A stretch of 27,372 bases of DNA. It comes from a virus. The translations under genes were made by a program, and so were the position numbers. This document shows, piece after piece, positions 13,006 through 27,372 of this stretch. The stretch lies in the IMG/VR virus record IMGVR_UViG_3300022745_000128, positions 1-27,372 of that record; one strand, 5' to 3'. The notes under the pieces were generated by a model. It made no database searches. It saw only the letters and a list, made by a program, of their open reading frames with translations, and was not told where the DNA came from. Each line of letters opens with the position of its first letter. Position 1 is the stretch's first letter.

Positions 13006-14682
13006 TTAGTGTCGGGTACGGAAGCTGCGCACCAGCGACATGCCTCGGTGCAAGGCTCCTCCTTGAGCAGTAGCACGCAAGCGGCAAGCCAGCATGAGGT
13101 AGAGCAAGGCGAAGTGCATGTGATCCTCGCCTTTGCTGCTTTTCACCCACTGGTAGGTGATCTCGTTGTTGCGGTCGAACACCTGCTGGCGGCGCATATC
13201 GGTGTAGTGCGCGTTGTACGCCTCCGACCTCGGCCCCTGATGGATGACAAGCGATCTGTCCTTGAACATCTGCATGATCGAGTCCAAGGCTACCGTCCGA
13301 TTGACCTTGACCATGCGCAAGTTCATGCGCCCGGTCGTGTGGTCTGCGTCTCGCTGGGCCACGGTGTACATATCGGTGCTTTTCGTGGTCACGAACCCGG
13401 CTCCGTATGCGTTTTTGTCGTAGTCGGTGATGCGCCGCACCAAGTCTGTCTCTGGCTGGGCGTCGTGGACGGAAATGAGCACCCGGTATTTCGCGCATAG
13501 CTCGCGTCGGCGCTGCTCGAAGATGGCAAGCGGGATCTCCTCACGGTGCACCACCAGCAACTTTCCGTCAAGAGTCATGCGGCCAATGCTCACGGTGCAA
13601 GTGATGTGACCCATATCGCACCCCATGTAGTGCACTTCCGAACTATTGAGGTCACCCTCGTAAGCACAAGCGGCCACATCGCTGGGGGAGATCTGGTCGT
13701 CCGAGGTTTCAGCCTCGATGCCAAGCACCTGATTGTGGAACTCCGCCTTCGTGTTGAACTCCGTGGACGAGCGCACGATGTAATCTGGTGTCAAGATGCC
13801 GTAAGCTGTCGCGGGGCTTACGTAGTAGGTGGCCGCCTCGTGCTGGTCAAGGTGGTTTTCGATCACCCATTCAAGTCTGGAGCGGTCGAGTTGGGGGTCT
13901 TTCCCGCACTTTGGGCAAGCCCAGTGCGCTTCCTGCCACCGAACATCCTTCAGGTTGCTGCGGGTGATGTCCATGAGGCTACCGCTGTAGCCGGGGATCT
14001 GCATGTGGGTGTAGTACTCGGGCAAGAACCGGTGACCACAGCAAGTGCAAGTAGCAAAGTGGCGGTAGCGGCGGCTGGTCTCGGCTTCCTTGGAAATCCC
14101 GACTCCGGCGATGGTTGGGGTCGAGAAATTGCGAATCAGGCGGTGTTTGCTGGCCTGCAAGCGGGAACGGAACTGGAGCAAGGTGTCCGGGTCTGACCGG
14201 TCGATCTCGTCATTGACCAGCATGTCGGCGGAAATGGACAAGGCTGCTGTTTCGGATCGTGTTCCACGGATAAACAGGAAGTTGGTGCCCAGTTGTTTGA
14301 GCTCGGAGTTGTTGACTTCGGGGTTGACCAAGCGGCGCAGTTCCGGGCTGCCCATGAGCAAGGGTGCCATCTTGGTCGTGGATAGCTTTACGGCGTCCGT
14401 GGCGCTTGGCATCGTGTAGATCACGTTCAAAGGGCGCTGCGTGGCAAGTGCGGCAAGGGCGTGGCACATAGAGACCGTGGACAAGCCGATCTGGGCGCAC
14501 TTAACCACGTTGACGACCCGGGCAGGGTTGTCGATGATGTCGGCCTGGAAGCTGTATTTCCCGCTCAGGTCAATGAGTTCGCCTTCCAAGTAGATGTTCT
14601 TTTGCACCCACTTGGACAAGGTTGAGAGTGTATAGGTACCAGCAACGGCGTCTCGGACGCGCTGGAGGTGGTCAGCGAACAT
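13006..14682 (-). CDS. Terminase large subunit (GpA type)
   Basis: A 558 aa packaging motor of the lambda gpA class. The ATPase part has a deviant Walker A at residues 61-69 (K-C-A-Q-I-G-L-S-T, as in the gpA family) and Walker B at 154-159 (M-L-V-N-D-E). A zinc-binding insertion is visible in the middle: C212, C214 and C215, then C256 and C259. The nuclease part begins about residue 350 with D356 in the G-C-D-M-G-H motif and a second acidic motif around V-H-D-A-Q-P-E-T-D. The C-terminal H-M-H-F-A-L-L-Y segment completes the family pattern. It pumps DNA into the prohead through the portal and cuts the concatemer. It starts inside the end of the preceding gene (11-nt overlap). Confidence 0.94.
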   Translation of the reverse strand: MFADHLQRVRDAVAGTYTLSTLSKWVQKNIYLEGELIDLSGKYSFQADIIDNPARVVNVVKCAQIGLSTVSMCHALAALATQRPLNVIYTMPSATDAVKLSTTKMAPLLMGSPELRRLVNPEVNNSELKQLGTNFLFIRGTRSETAALSISADMLVNDEIDRSDPDTLLQFRSRLQASKHRLIRNFSTPTIAGVGISKEAETSRRYRHFATCTCCGHRFLPEYYTHMQIPGYSGSLMDITRSNLKDVRWQEAHWACPKCGKDPQLDRSRLEWVIENHLDQHEAATYYVSPATAYGILTPDYIVRSSTEFNTKAEFHNQVLGIEAETSDDQISPSDVAACAYEGDLNSSEVHYMGCDMGHITCTVSIGRMTLDGKLLVVHREEIPLAIFEQRRRELCAKYRVLISVHDAQPETDLVRRITDYDKNAYGAGFVTTKSTDMYTVAQRDADHTTGRMNLRMVKVNRTVALDSIMQMFKDRSLVIHQGPRSEAYNAHYTDMRRQQVFDRNNEITYQWVKSSKGEDHMHFALLYLMLACRLRATAQGGALHRGMSLVRSFRTRH

Positions 14683-16129: not shown

Positions 16130-16647
16130 TCCGTTACCCACAAGCCTCTAATAGGGGTTTATCTAAGGAAAAACCCTAGGGAAACCTAGGGAAAACCCTT
16201 AGATAAGCTTCTAACCCGCTGCGGATCACCGCACTTAGTTAATCGGGTTTGTTCATTGTCGCATTTTATGATGGCCCACGGGCCATCGGAACTATGCCCT
16301 AAGGGGTCATGGTATCCGATGCACAGTGATTCAAACGTGACAACGATTGATTCGGGTATTCTTTAAAAATTTATAGATAGCGCGGCCATTGTACGTGTCC
16401 ACTATTCGGACATAGGGTCAACCGCGCGAGTTGTCAGGGCAAGAACCCATACCCCGAGGTATGCGCGTATAAGACTACACAAGGTGTGGCATCGGCATAT
16501 CTTGCATGGTATGGATGTGCGCGGGGAAACCGCGTTTAGTGCACCCACAAAGCACCGACAACTATAAAGAACGGCATTTATGCCAAGAACGTGTAACCCA
16601 GCAGGACTCGGAGCACGTAACCCCTAGATTGTCTGGAAAATGATGTA

Positions 16648-16878
16648 TTGGTGACAATGCATAGCATAATCATGCGGTTTCTTGACTCAATAAGCGGTCT
16701 GAAACAAGCGGCCTACAGGCGTGAGGGATTATCAATACCCGCAGGATTCATTCTTGCGGCATACGATAAAGCTACCCCACAATGTGCCACACCACTTCAC
16801 ACCCTACTTATTAAGCTTTTAAACCAGAGTACGGCAATTCGCAAGGTTTTAATAGAGAACCCGATTACAAGGGTATAA
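16648..16878 (+). CDS. Doubtful small gene inside the structured region
   Basis: A 76 aa reading frame with TTG start at 16648 and internal Met codons, and no good ribosome site. The amino-acid composition is protein-like in the second half (I-P-A-G-F-I-L-A-A-Y-D-K), with no motif. It lies entirely within the hairpin-rich stretch and before the terminator, so it may be a chance frame in an RNA gene. Listed so that it is not lost. Confidence 0.28.
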   Translation: MVTMHSIIMRFLDSISGLKQAAYRREGLSIPAGFILAAYDKATPQCATPLHTLLIKLLNQSTAIRKVLIENPITRV

Positions 16879-16935
16879 AGCACCCGCGATAGTGCGGAAT
16901 TAGATAACGACGGGGCCTAACCAGCCCCCGATAGC

Positions 16936-16951
16936 GCGGTTGAGAAACCGC
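16936..16951 (+). promoter_or_regulatory. Antiterminator-like hairpin
   Basis: GCGGTT (16936-16941), loop GAGA, AACCGC (16946-16951). The 3-prime arm is the same sequence that forms the 5-prime arm of the following terminator, so the two hairpins cannot coexist. This layout is that of an attenuator. Confidence 0.5.
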
Positions 16952-16985
16952 CTAAGTGCATATTCGTGTGCTTAGGCGGTTTTTC
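16946..16985 (+). terminator. Rho-independent terminator
   Basis: An 11-bp GC-rich stem (AACCGCCTAAG 16946-16956, CTTAGGCGGTT 16971-16981), extended by G-U pairs, is followed by a T-run. It lies 28 nt before the next gene. Confidence 0.88.
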
Positions 16986-17012
16986 ATAGTAGATATTATG
17001 CGAGGTTAAATT

Positions 17013-17558
17013 ATGGATTCACTATTTGAACAATTTGAAGGCGACGATCTTTGTCGCCTAGCCGAATGCCTCAAAGCAATCGAAGCCGCCGGAAAGCGCG
17101 TCGATAAGTACACGCACGCTGGGGTAAATCAGTCGAGCGGGAATGTCTGGGTTATGCCTGAGGATTGGCCCGGATGTGTCTATTGTTCCATTGGATTTGA
17201 TGTCGCATGGGGCTATTCTTGCCCGGAATGCGGAAATGAGCACGATTTTGAAACATTTGAGGAAATGTCCGAATACGCTGATCGTTACGCATCGTCTTGC
17301 AAAGCATGCAAACCAAAATTTGTCGCAGGCTGGAACATGCCCGGATACCTACCCGATGCCGATCCGGTGGAATTCGATACATCCGACGATGCGATGGACT
17401 TCATCCGGGATGAAATGCGCAAGGATGCTGAGGAAAACGCACCAGAGTTTGAGGTGGGTGCACTACTTGCACGGATTGACACGTTCGCTGCCGATGCCAA
17501 GGGAGAATTTGGCGTAGGCTTTTTGGCATATCACTACTTTGTGATGATGGAGGCTTGA
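17013..17558 (+). CDS. Cysteine-rich zinc-binding protein, unknown function
   Basis: A 181 aa acidic protein. A first pair C-V-Y-C (about residues 55-58) is followed by C-P-E-C (about 70-73) and C-K-A-C (about 96-99), enough for one or two zinc sites. A second part has G-W-N-M-P-G-Y-L-P-D-A-D-P (about 105-117) followed by a helix in D-D-A-M-D-F-I-R-D-E-M. I have seen that arrangement in uncharacterised phage and mobile-element proteins. GAGG lies 7 nt before ATG 17013. It is the first gene after the attenuator-like terminator and the head of a chain of small genes. No catalytic role is claimed. Confidence 0.75.
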   Translation: MDSLFEQFEGDDLCRLAECLKAIEAAGKRVDKYTHAGVNQSSGNVWVMPEDWPGCVYCSIGFDVAWGYSCPECGNEHDFETFEEMSEYADRYASSCKACKPKFVAGWNMPGYLPDADPVEFDTSDDAMDFIRDEMRKDAEENAPEFEVGALLARIDTFAADAKGEFGVGFLAYHYFVMMEA

Positions 17559-17561
17559 ATC

Positions 17562-17642
17562 ATGATAAACCTATTTCAAGCATTTATTCTTGCTGCCGTT
17601 TTCATGGCACCACTTGTTTTTGATTTTTTTATGAGAGGTTGA
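17562..17642 (+). CDS. Tiny membrane peptide
   Basis: A 26 aa peptide from ATG 17562 with GGAGG 8 nt upstream. It is almost entirely one hydrophobic segment (F-I-L-A-A-V-F-M-A-P-L-V-F), with a single basic residue near the end, and so is probably membrane-inserted. It lies 3 nt after the previous gene and next to the following one, so the three are co-translated. Phages use such peptides for lysis control or superinfection effects; which applies here is unknown. Confidence 0.55.
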   Translation: MINLFQAFILAAVFMAPLVFDFFMRG

Positions 17643-17643
17643 A

Positions 17644-17913
17644 ATGTATAACCCATTCAAGCCAGAAATACCCGGCAATATCGTCGGATGGCGCAACCCT
17701 ACCCCCAGTGAAATCCGATTTGGGCATGGTGCGATTCATTACGCCGAATTTGATCCCGAATTGTGGACATACTATATTTGCGGAAACAAGAAATTCGCCA
17801 ATCCAAAATCGGCGAAAGAATATGCGATTAAAAAAGGCATTTTCGCTGGGATTGATAAAAAGACTAAAAAATGGATCAAAAGCCCATTTGATGGACTTCG
17901 TTATAACCGATAA
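17644..17913 (+). CDS. Small basic protein, unknown
   Basis: An 89 aa protein starting M-Y-N-P-F-K-P at ATG 17644, one base after the previous stop, with GAGG upstream. It is aromatic-rich in the middle (W-T-Y-Y-I-C-G) and Lys-rich toward the end (K-K-T-K-K-W-I-K). This looks like a compact nucleic-acid- or protein-binding domain. No family was recognised. AT content is higher than in the head genes. Confidence 0.65.
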   Translation: MYNPFKPEIPGNIVGWRNPTPSEIRFGHGAIHYAEFDPELWTYYICGNKKFANPKSAKEYAIKKGIFAGIDKKTKKWIKSPFDGLRYNR

Positions 17914-17942
17914 ATTTTAGAAAACCACAATTCAATTTAATT

Positions 17943-22584: not shown

Positions 22585-22758
22585 AGACTTGACAATCCGG
22601 ATGTCCGAGTGTGGGGCCAAGTGTGGGGCCGAGTGTGGCTCCAAGTGTGGATACAAGTACGGGAACGAGTACTGGACCGAGTGCGGTCCCAAGTACAGAA
22701 ACAAGTGCGGGACCGAGTGCGGGGCCGAGTGCGAGTCCGAATTAGGAGCAGACCATGA
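22582..22758 (+). CDS. XDQV-repeat mini-protein 1
   Basis: A 58 aa protein, first of the array. It starts M-R-L-D-N-P-D-V-R-V-W and continues as four-residue repeats of the kind W-G-Q-V, R-E-R-V and L-D-R-V. The C-terminus is basic and ends I-R-S-R-P. The family is unknown to me. No cysteine, signal or membrane segment is present. Its stop TGA overlaps the ATG of the next unit (ATGA at 22755). The start is preceded by the hairpin spacer described separately. Confidence 0.75.
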   Translation: MRLDNPDVRVWGQVWGRVWLQVWIQVRERVLDRVRSQVQKQVRDRVRGRVRVRIRSRP

Positions 22759-22955
22759 GACTTGACAAGCCGGATGCCCGAGTGTGGGACCAAGTATTGG
22801 ACCAAGTGTGGTTCCAAGTGCGGAACCAATTGCAGGACCAAGTGTGGGTCCGAGTGGGGTTCCCAGTGTGGGATCAAGCGCGGAACCAAGTACGGGACCA
22901 AGTATTGGACCAAGTGCGGAACCGAGTTACACGCCGAGTGAGGAGCAGACCATGA
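22755..22955 (+). CDS. XDQV-repeat mini-protein 2
   Basis: A 66 aa paralog. It starts M-R-L-D-K-P-D-A-R-V-W-D-Q-V and includes L-D-Q-V, F-Q-V, R-N-Q-L and R-D-Q-V units. The tail is R-R-V-R-S-R-P. AGGAG lies 6 nt before ATG 22755, inside the end of unit 1. Its middle, with V-R-V-G-F-P-V-W-D-Q-A, is nearly repeated in unit 3. Stop overlaps the next ATG. Confidence 0.78.
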   Translation: MRLDKPDARVWDQVLDQVWFQVRNQLQDQVWVRVGFPVWDQARNQVRDQVLDQVRNRVTRRVRSRP

Positions 22956-23110
22956 GACTTGACAAGCCGGACGGCCCAGTGTGGGTCCGAGTGGGGTTCC
23001 AAGTGTGGGATCAAGCGCGGGACCAAGTGTGGGACCAAGTGCGGGACCGAGTACTGGACCGAGTGCGGGGCCAGGTGCGGTATCGAGTGCGGAACCAAGT
23101 TTCCCACTGA
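22952..23110 (+). CDS. XDQV-repeat mini-protein 3
   Basis: A 52 aa paralog starting M-R-L-D-K-P-D-G-P-V-W. It lacks the usual R-S-K-P tail and ends Q-V-S-H at a stand-alone TGA, so the coupling chain breaks here. A 50-nt stretch (23047-23096) is identical to one in unit 7 at 25253-25302, on the far side of the VWA gene. Confidence 0.75.
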   Translation: MRLDKPDGPVWVRVGFQVWDQARDQVWDQVRDRVLDRVRGQVRYRVRNQVSH

Positions 23111-24630: not shown

Positions 24631-24767
24631 GACTTGGTAAACAGGATGTTCGAGTGTGGGTCCAAGTGCGGGACCAAGCGCTAGGTCGAGTGTGGGGCCA
24701 AGCGTGGCTCCCCGTGTGGGACCCAGTACAGGGACAAGTGTGGGACCGAATCAGGAGTAAGCCATGA
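24627..24767 (+). CDS. XDQV-repeat mini-protein 4 (GTG start on the VWA stop)
   Basis: A 46 aa paralog beginning (GTG) [11 protein letters not shown]. Its start GTG shares bases with the TGA of the VWA gene, so it is translated by reinitiation after the VWA protein. Repeat units include V-Q-V, R-D-Q-A and W-G-Q-A. The tail is I-R-S-K-P. Stop overlaps the next ATG. Confidence 0.7.
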   Translation: MRLGKQDVRVWVQVRDQALGRVWGQAWLPVWDPVQGQVWDRIRSKP

Positions 24768-24916
24768 GACTTGACAAGCCGGATGTTCGAGTGTGGGGTC
24801 CAGTGTGGGACCACGTGTGGTCCCACGTGCGGGGCCAAGTACTGGGCCAATTGTGGGACAAAGTGTGGGTTCAAGTGTGGGTCCAGGTTGGACACCGAAC
24901 TAGGAGAAAACCATGA
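24764..24916 (+). CDS. XDQV-repeat mini-protein 5
   Basis: A 50 aa paralog starting [11 protein letters not shown]. It is more diverged in the middle, with H for Q in W-D-H-V and W-S-H-V. The tail is R-T-R-R-K-P, the least regular of the set. AGGAG precedes ATG 24764. ATGA overlap with unit 6. Confidence 0.72.
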   Translation: MRLDKPDVRVWGPVWDHVWSHVRGQVLGQLWDKVWVQVWVQVGHRTRRKP

Positions 24917-25161
24917 GACTTGGTAAACAGGATGTCCAAGTGTGGGGCCAAGTGGGGAACCAAGTGTGGAACAGAGTGTGGGGCCAAGTGCGGGACCAAG
25001 TGTTGGACCAAGTGTTGGACCAAGTGTTGGACCAAGTATGGGACCAAGTGTTGGACCAAGTGTTGGACCAAGTGTTGGACCAAGTATGGGACCAAGTGCG
25101 GGACCAAGTGTTGGACCAAGTATGGGACCGAGTTACACGCCGAATCAGGAGCAAACCATGA
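24913..25161 (+). CDS. XDQV-repeat mini-protein 6, the longest and most regular
   Basis: An 82 aa paralog beginning [11 protein letters not shown]. Residues about 27-72 are nearly pure X-D-Q-V with X being R, L or W. The DNA has 12-nt units with a 48-nt block copied exactly twice (25003-25050, 25051-25098), so it looks recently expanded. The tail is R-R-I-R-S-K-P. AGGAG precedes the ATG; the stop overlaps unit 7. Confidence 0.8.
24991..25128. repeat. 12-nt tandem repeat inside unit 6, with two 48-nt copies
   Basis: Units of the form TGGGACCAAGTG or TTGGACCAAGTG run in phase with the codons, about eleven in a row. No stop occurs in the three forward frames, which is why several false reading frames appear here. 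The 48-nt block 25003-25050 equals 25051-25098. Confidence 0.92.
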
Positions 25162-25334
25162 GACTTGACAAGCCGAACGTACGAGTGTGGCTCCAAGTGG
25201 TGGTCCAAGTGCGGTATCGAGTACGGGTCCAAGTGTGGGACCAAGTGCGGGTCCGAGTACTGGACCGAGTGCGGGGCCAGGTGCGGTATCGAGTGCGGAA
25301 CCGAGTTACACGCAGAATCAGGAGCAAACCATGA
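25158..25334 (+). CDS. XDQV-repeat mini-protein 7
   Basis: A 58 aa paralog starting [11 protein letters not shown]. It is Arg-rich, with R-Y-R-V, R-V-Q-V and L-D-R-V. It shares a 50-nt identical stretch with unit 3 across the VWA gene. The tail is R-R-I-R-S-K-P. ATGA overlaps at both ends. Confidence 0.76.
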
Positions 25335-25483
25335 GACTTGACAAGCCGGATGTCCGAGGGTGGTACCAAGTGCGGGTCCAAGTGCGGGTCCGAGTGTGGG
25401 ACCAAGTACGGTATCGAGTGCGGGACCAAGTGCTGGACCGAGTGTGGAACCAAGCCCCACACCGAATCAGGAGCAAACCATGA
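25331..25483 (+). CDS. XDQV-repeat mini-protein 8
   Basis: A 50 aa paralog starting [11 protein letters not shown]. It has G where the others have V at residue 10. Repeat units include V-Q-V, R-V-R-V and W-D-Q-V. The tail is H-R-I-R-S-K-P. AGGAG and ATGA coupling on both sides. Confidence 0.75.
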
Positions 25484-25668
25484 GACTTGACAAGCCGAAT
25501 GCCCGAGTGTGGTACCAAGTGCGGTACCAAGTGCTAGGTCGAGTGTTGGACCGAGTGTGGGACCAAGTGCAGTACCAAGCACTAGGTCGAGTGTTGGACC
25601 GAGTGTGGGGCCAACTTGCACGCCGAATCAAGTTTCACGCCGAATCAGGAGCAAACCATGAGACTTGA
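25480..25668 (+). CDS. XDQV-repeat mini-protein 9, tail changed by a duplication
   Basis: A 62 aa paralog starting [12 protein letters not shown] short duplicated segment (CACGCCGAATCA occurs twice, at about 25619 and 25636) shifts the frame at the end. The R-I-R-S-K-P tail is lost; the protein ends in a different tail and stops 11 nt inside unit 10 instead of on its ATG. Confidence 0.68.
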   Translation: MRLDKPNARVWYQVRYQVLGRVLDRVWDQVQYQALGRVLDRVWGQLARRIKFHAESGANHET

Positions 25669-25798
25669 CAAGCCGAATCCCCAAGTATCGGACCAAGTGT
25701 GGGTCCAAGTGTGGGTCCAAGTACCGGACCAAGCGTGGGACCAAGTGTGGGACCCGGTGTGTACCCAAGTACTGCACCAAATCAGGAGCGAACCTTGA
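25658..25798 (+). CDS. XDQV-repeat mini-protein 10, last clear unit
   Basis: A 46 aa paralog starting M-R-L-D-K-P-N-P-Q-V-S-D-Q-V. It has V-Q-V, P-D-Q-A and W-D-P-V units and a Cys-containing variant near residue 35. The tail is I-R-S-E-P. Its stop TGA overlaps a TTG that opens the next frame (TTGA), preceded by AGGAGC. Confidence 0.7.
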   Translation: MRLDKPNPQVSDQVWVQVWVQVPDQAWDQVWDPVCTQVLHQIRSEP

Positions 25799-26782: not shown

Positions 26783-27372
26783 ATGCAACTGACATATAAA
26801 TTTCGGCTACGGGATACAGCCGACAGCGAATTGCGCCGACAAGCGCGTGCCGTCAATTTCGTTTGGAACTACTGCAATGAGACACAGCAGCAGGCCGTCA
26901 AGCGTGGACGCAAGTGGTTGTCCAAATACGACCTTCAGAAGCTGACTGCTGGGGCTTCAAAAGAGTTGGACATTCACGCGCACACCATCCAAGGTGTTTG
27001 CTGCAAATACGACGACAACCGCAAGACCCACAAAAAAGCTTGGCTTCGATGGCGAAGTAACAAAAGGTCGCTTGGATGGGTGCCGTTTAATACAGGTCAC
27101 GTCATCTACAAAAACGGCGCATTTTGGTTTCGTGGACGCGCATATAAAGCGTGGGTAAGCCGAGACCTCGAAGAAGGACAAAGCTTTGGAGCAGGCAGTT
27201 TCAGCCAAGATAGTCAAGGGCATTGGTTCATCAATCTCCCCGTCGAGGTGGAATCAATCGAATCCGTTGGCGGCGATGCCGTTGGCATTGATTTGGGCCT
27301 AAAAGACTTGGCCAACATCAGCAACGGTAGCAAGATAGAGCACCCTCGTTGGTATCGCAAGATGCAAGAACG
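26783..27372 (+). CDS. TnpB-like RNA-guided nuclease family protein (IS605 OrfB), cut by the right edge
   Basis: The first 196 residues are visible; the gene continues past the window. AAGGAG lies 6 nt before ATG 26783. The N-terminus M-Q-L-T-Y-K-F-R-L-R and N-F-V-W-N-Y-C-N-E (residues 25-33) are typical of the OrfB/TnpB helical part. A beta-strand region (F-W-F-R-G-R, residues 114-119) follows, then the first RuvC motif G-I-D-L-G-L-K-D with catalytic D170. The remaining catalytic residues and the zinc finger would lie outside. No TnpA is seen upstream. The gene is tightly joined to phage genes, so it may be a domesticated copy. Confidence 0.85.
   Translation, partial: MQLTYKFRLRDTADSELRRQARAVNFVWNYCNETQQQAVKRGRKWLSKYDLQKLTAGASKELDIHAHTIQGVCCKYDDNRKTHKKAWLRWRSNKRSLGWVPFNTGHVIYKNGAFWFRGRAYKAWVSRDLEEGQSFGAGSFSQDSQGHWFINLPVEVESIESVGGDAVGIDLGLKDLANISNGSKIEHPRWYRKMQE

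Follow-up and report, generated by a model that had tools for sequence, protein, structure and literature searches.

The window analysed here is a phage record from IMG/VR, taken at its full length of 27,372 bases. Within it, a noncoding stretch runs on the plus strand from the stop codon of an upstream gene (16129) to about position 16990, between that gene, which encodes 175 amino acids, and the next gene (Table 1). These are the boundaries that a sequence-only reading had given for a possible structured RNA, and they can be kept. The terminase genes are divergent from the RNA locus, with the GpA ATPase at 13006-14682 on the minus strand. The gene immediately upstream is a conserved neighbour of the RNA in five relatives (L005, L006, L028, L029 and L110). 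Its product has no PHROG match and nothing above cut-off in Pfam, and a structure model of low confidence (pLDDT 67) found no match in a search of the PDB. On the plus strand, the sequence immediately before the RNA shows no evident sigma-70 promoter.

Table 1. Features of the RNA locus, in window coordinates
Feature	Position	Strand	Remarks
Large structured noncoding RNA, about 850 nt	16130-16986	+	Fold, homologs, compensated pairs, G-U excess
Gene for a small alpha-helical phage protein, 175 aa	15602-16129	+	Immediately 5' of the RNA
Hairpin P0, post-stop, variable in length	16153-16212	+	6 of 17 pairs doubly changed
Closing long-range helix, 5' strand	16214-16220	+	Pairs with 16933-16940; consensus columns 111-117 with 847-854; mostly invariant
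Closing long-range helix, 3' strand	16933-16940	+	Consensus structure
5' domain: small hairpin and long branched arm	16222-16344	+	Kept out to L028, L029 and L110
Internal long-range helix, 5' strand	16354-16365	+	Pairs with 16565-16571 and 16620-16623; overlaps boxA; invariant
boxA-like element TTCTTTAAAAATTTATAGA, proposed NusB/NusE loading site	16359-16377	+	Likeness to rRNA spacer
Middle domain, two covarying arms	16380-16563	+	Double changes at the alignment columns given in the text
3' core, highly conserved	16564-16898	+	Identity to G002 90-95%; middle domain 72%
Covarying hairpin with GUGA/GCGA loop, inside the 3' core	16643-16662	+	Double changes
Intrinsic terminator, 20-bp stem and U run	16941-16986	+	Conserved in 3 of 3 full-length copies

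Several other features of the window and its relatives deserve mention. A 0.93-kb insert (17005-17941) lies precisely where the gene 3' of the RNA begins; it carries an endonuclease VII/HNH-like ORF (17013-17558) and a 90-codon ORF, is flanked by ATTATGCGAG repeats, and is missing in relatives. Further along, arrays of a 12-bp repeat (CCAAGTGTGGGA) lie on both sides of a VWA-domain gene (22600-23100 and 24740-25760) and form a series of small ORFs, each of which starts with AGGAG...ATGAGACTTGACAA and encodes repeats of the VWDQVLDQV type. Several TnpB-like ORFs are present as well, in the related genome G003 (L015:11027-11872 and L015:13326-14528) and in the window (26783-27370). The closest plasmid relatives of L015:13326-14528 are found in Paraburkholderia and Polaromonas, and these TnpB relatives would also point to Burkholderiales, which are probably the hosts. 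Because of this likely host group, we infer that the phage clade comes from freshwater-type metagenomes.

The plus strand of 16130-16986 folds at -320.8 kcal/mol, whereas dinucleotide shuffles average -245.6 (sd 6.2); with a z of -12.15, the excess of structure is far beyond chance. The strong terminator expected at the end of the stretch is present, and its stem and U run are conserved. Both of the long-range pairings proposed earlier are found in the consensus structure, but they are nearly invariant, so that covariation can lend them little support. A repeated GATAGCGCGG motif, which had also been pointed out, fared less well: the window has exact copies at 16376 and 16930, yet the repeat is not conserved. 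In relatives the first copy reads GACAGCGCGG or GACAGCACGG, tracking its own local stem, so that the repeat looks coincidental.

Covariation among homologs, which the sequence-only reading had asked for, is present both over the full length and in the 5' domain. RNAalifold on the three distinct full-length sequences, the only full-length copies that can be aligned, yields 263 pairs, 20 of which carry double compensatory changes; those of the middle domain fall in alignment columns A2 293, 309, 343, 345, 359, 361, 368, 369, 374, 389, 435 and 438. In this alignment 98.8% of the cells are paired, as opposed to 35-47%, with 0-3 double changes, when the 3' partners are slid. Between the window and L006, 39 of the changed pairs stay paired and 5 are lost (27.6 and 35.4 under the null), and 19 are doubly changed, where the null has a mean of 2.4 and a maximum of 9 in 2000. 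Because the consensus structure comes from the very alignment on which it was tested, the comparison was also made with the minimum free energy structure of the window alone, which again gives 19 double changes in L006, with 40 changed pairs kept and 29 broken. For the 5' domain together with hairpin P0, six sequences could be compared: 94.2% of the cells of 64 pairs are paired and 27 of the 64 pairs are doubly changed, while none of 500 shuffles scores as high on any measure and slid controls reach at most 6 double changes. The stretch is noncoding, covarying and more stable than its shuffles, as a large structured noncoding RNA is. With fold, conservation and covariation strongly supporting the structured noncoding phage RNA of about 850 nt that had been suspected here, we regard the existence of a real and new family of large structured phage RNAs as nearly certain.

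The element is shared with three IMG/VR records, namely L005 (94% DNA identity) and L006 and L007 (84%), the latter two being identical to each other across it. L007 belongs to a genome of 72.4 kb (G003) that has terminal repeats of 100 bp or more and is therefore probably complete, and in which no tRNA and no Rfam RNA were found. In DNA, the window and L006 (G002) are 72% identical over the 5' and middle domains; the figure is 90-95% for the 3' core and 95% for the terminase gene. Deeper relatives (L028, L029 and L110) came from a terminase-alignment search and a flanking-protein search. Terminase identity is 54-55% for L028 and L029, and the product of the flanking gene is 57-60% identical in all three. 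L110 carries the RNA in full length (L110:5514-6500) with its own terminator, whereas L028 and L029 both end inside it. These two are contigs from one metagenome, and in both the RNA is cut off at an identical base (positions 1-60), which suggests a shared or variable 3' part.

A model of the 5' domain (R1) recovers L028, L029, L110 and the close members at E<=1e-34; beyond known members it gives only an insignificant 14-bit match in L031. A model of the 3' core (R2) finds nothing in L110, L031, L042 or L050. The distant phages L031, L042 and L050, and the partial L032 and L034, have the same layout of a small gene, a post-stop hairpin and a noncoding stretch, the last of about 0.9-1.4 kb where complete. 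The wider set is either a single family that evolves fast or a modular family. As the 3' core is unrecognisable in L110, L031, L042 and L050, the RNA could be modular, combining a conserved 5' domain and boxA with differing 3' parts. A motif TTCTA-N5-CGGATAGAGTAGA occurs in the 3' part of the RNAs of L110 (6291-6313) and L031 (about 3473-3451, minus strand), with flanks that differ yet are self-complementary (ACAATC/GATTGT and GGTC/GACC); these two contigs are the only ones in the whole viral collection with the pattern. By blastn, the RNA has no match in phages; a 17-mer search gave the known relatives only, plus chance matches inside genes in L013 and L014. In the stretches examined of the terminase relatives Seuss, JWF, EAb13 and SHOU24 (25-27% identical over the terminase) R1 has no match, and a degenerate pattern of the 5' domain and boxA that covers all six known members has none in 84,980 bacterial and archaeal genomes.

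The boxA-like element is 18/19 identical to the boxA of the 16S-23S spacer of Comamonas odontotermitis (TTCTTTAAAAATTCATAGA), and no other site reaches 14/19 to this spacer boxA in the window or in the complete 72-kb G003. All 7 independent lineages have the pattern TC[AT]TTAA[AC]A where the untranslated stretch begins. Multiplying the per-sequence shuffle frequencies gives 5.6e-15, which is an order-of-magnitude guide only, because the pattern was first noticed in these same sequences. A boxA usually precedes the RNA that it serves, whereas the window copy lies 230 nt into the untranslated region, where it is predicted to be paired. It matches the published gamma-proteobacterial consensus GYTCTTTAANA (PMC5725501) at 10/11 positions. 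Like the boxA of rRNA operons, at which NusB/NusE load, it precedes untranslated structured RNA; unlike it, the phage copy is inside a noncoding RNA that is not rRNA, and its binding of NusB/NusE is putative. Nus factors also promote the folding of rRNA (PMC5725501), and a boxA within a kilobase of untranslated, folded RNA would fit both known boxA roles. Second boxA-like elements were seen at L031:4940 (minus strand), before the small gene, and at L050:1926 (minus strand), further down the noncoding region.

In one distant relative, L050, the syntenic noncoding stretch matches bacterial LSU rRNA (54.6 bits, E 1.9e-13). A second search did not show the match again, but a separate blastn comparison with E. 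coli 23S rRNA bears it out, with 70.8% identity over 89 nt at 2101-2187, which is the L1 stalk. This fragment (L050:1281-1367, minus strand, inside the long noncoding region) has compensated stem changes, with GGUGG/CCACC becoming AGCCG/CGGCU as read from the sequences. The L1 stalk (H76-H78) occurs in this distant relative only; an Rfam scan finds no match to it in the window RNA. As such, the fragment in L050 may be taken as a lead toward a translation-related role, not as proof of one.

Could the stretch be something other than a free-standing RNA? A protein-coding reading would have to rest on 16648-16878, the only ORF of at least 60 amino acids in the stretch, which is an open frame of 76 codons in the window and in G001. 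This frame begins with TTG, is truncated by two 1-nt deletions in L006 (G002), and before the first deletion has 6 non-synonymous and 3 synonymous codon changes. The earlier judgement that no convincing gene is present is thereby upheld, and coding of this frame, which had been named as the finding that would overturn the RNA, did not come true in the computational test; of all the alternatives we consider it the least probable. The perfect hairpins and the nearby terminase genes would also suit an element acting at the DNA level, for instance in packaging or as a replication origin, with inverted repeats that mimic RNA. The variable pairs, however, hold 75 G-U against 15 A-C cells, as expected for RNA and indicating that the plus strand is the functional RNA, and the excess of fold is on one strand (z -5.68 for the complementary strand), so that a DNA element is very improbable. 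Still less probable is a mobile intron-type ribozyme with a homing endonuclease, to which the endonuclease VII/HNH-like ORF that follows the RNA on its 3' side might lend some colour, as that ORF is part of the separate, repeat-flanked insert found in the window only, relatives have the RNA without it, the RNA has no match to group I or group II introns, and no gene is interrupted. Frame breaks, G-U excess and separate insert thus led us to reject the three readings.

Two further alternatives accept an RNA at this site. The sequence-only reading had compared it with GOLLD and ROOL, phage RNAs of similar size that are often near tRNAs, have no known function and both form RNA cages (PMC12286853). 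The comparison was right as to kind, a large ornate phage RNA, but membership of either class, which that reading had left unconfirmed, is not supported, and both the models and the tRNA context speak against it. The GOLLD model (RF02032) and the ROOL model (RF03087) match none of eight records (the window and seven related ones) at E<=10, and the latter matched no control genome either. Scans with Rfam 15 (group I and II introns, OLE, HEARO, rRNA and others) leave the window RNA with nothing above gathering score; RF01998, which is group-II-D1D4-1, was rejected, and the RNA matches no Rfam 15 family. Furthermore, no tRNA was found in the window, in L005 or in the 72-kb G003. With GOLLD the present RNA shares its phage location, a length of at least 800 nt, an ornate fold, long-range helices and the division into a conserved and a variable half (PMC12286853), but it has a boxA and directly follows a phage gene; with ROOL it shares being a large ornate phage RNA of unknown function, but differs in size and motifs and in not being near tRNAs. 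It is of the same kind as these RNAs but a member of neither, and a GOLLD or ROOL so divergent that the Rfam models miss it is highly improbable, more so than a DNA element and less so than an intron. The alternative that deserves most weight, though we consider it unlikely, is a leader or antitermination element, put-like or a boxA leader, that acts in cis to control the downstream genes. The boxA is a transcription-control signal, and the 5' domain and boxA are conserved furthest, whereas the 3' part could not be recognised in the far relatives. However, a strong, conserved terminator closes the stretch before the next gene, which in relatives begins about 20 nt past it; no part is better conserved within the close group than the 3' core; and 850 nt is far above the size of known put or boxA leaders.

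We thus favour, as a probable though by no means assured explanation, a noncoding RNA family that loads host Nus factors through its boxA and ends as a folded scaffold or ribonucleoprotein. Transcription would proceed on the plus strand behind the small gene, presumably as a co-transcript with it, and the boxA in the nascent RNA would load the host Nus complex (NusB/NusE) as on rRNA. This complex would keep the polymerase going across a kilobase of untranslated RNA, and may help folding by holding the 5' part near the polymerase while the long-range helices form. The transcript is predicted to stop at the terminator, and the mature RNA might then act as a folded scaffold or ribonucleoprotein, its final activity being speculative. 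To judge from the sequences compared, the boxA/Nus mechanism is likely. What the RNA does once made is a matter of speculation; the role we prefer is one that brings it into contact with the host's translation machinery, since the element resembles rRNA and a 23S L1 stalk occurs in one relative. Contact with ribosomal components would be the most informative hypothesis for the downstream activity. A bolder proposal, which we put forward only tentatively and as possible rather than probable, is that this new class of phage RNA borrows the host's rRNA production line: a copied rrn boxA would load the Nus antitermination and folding complex, some members would display pieces of rRNA, the 23S L1 stalk being one, and the RNA would in this way engage ribosomal proteins or ribosomes during infection.

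Phage RNAs of the GOLLD and ROOL type are striking and their function is unknown, and the present RNA adds a further, apparently unrelated class. Here a functional clue can be read from the RNA itself, with a boxA of host type in all the relatives inspected and, in one of them, a 23S L1 stalk. The conserved 5' domain provides a usable search model, and the boxA and L1-stalk clues make the function, production and folding of a giant phage RNA directly testable.
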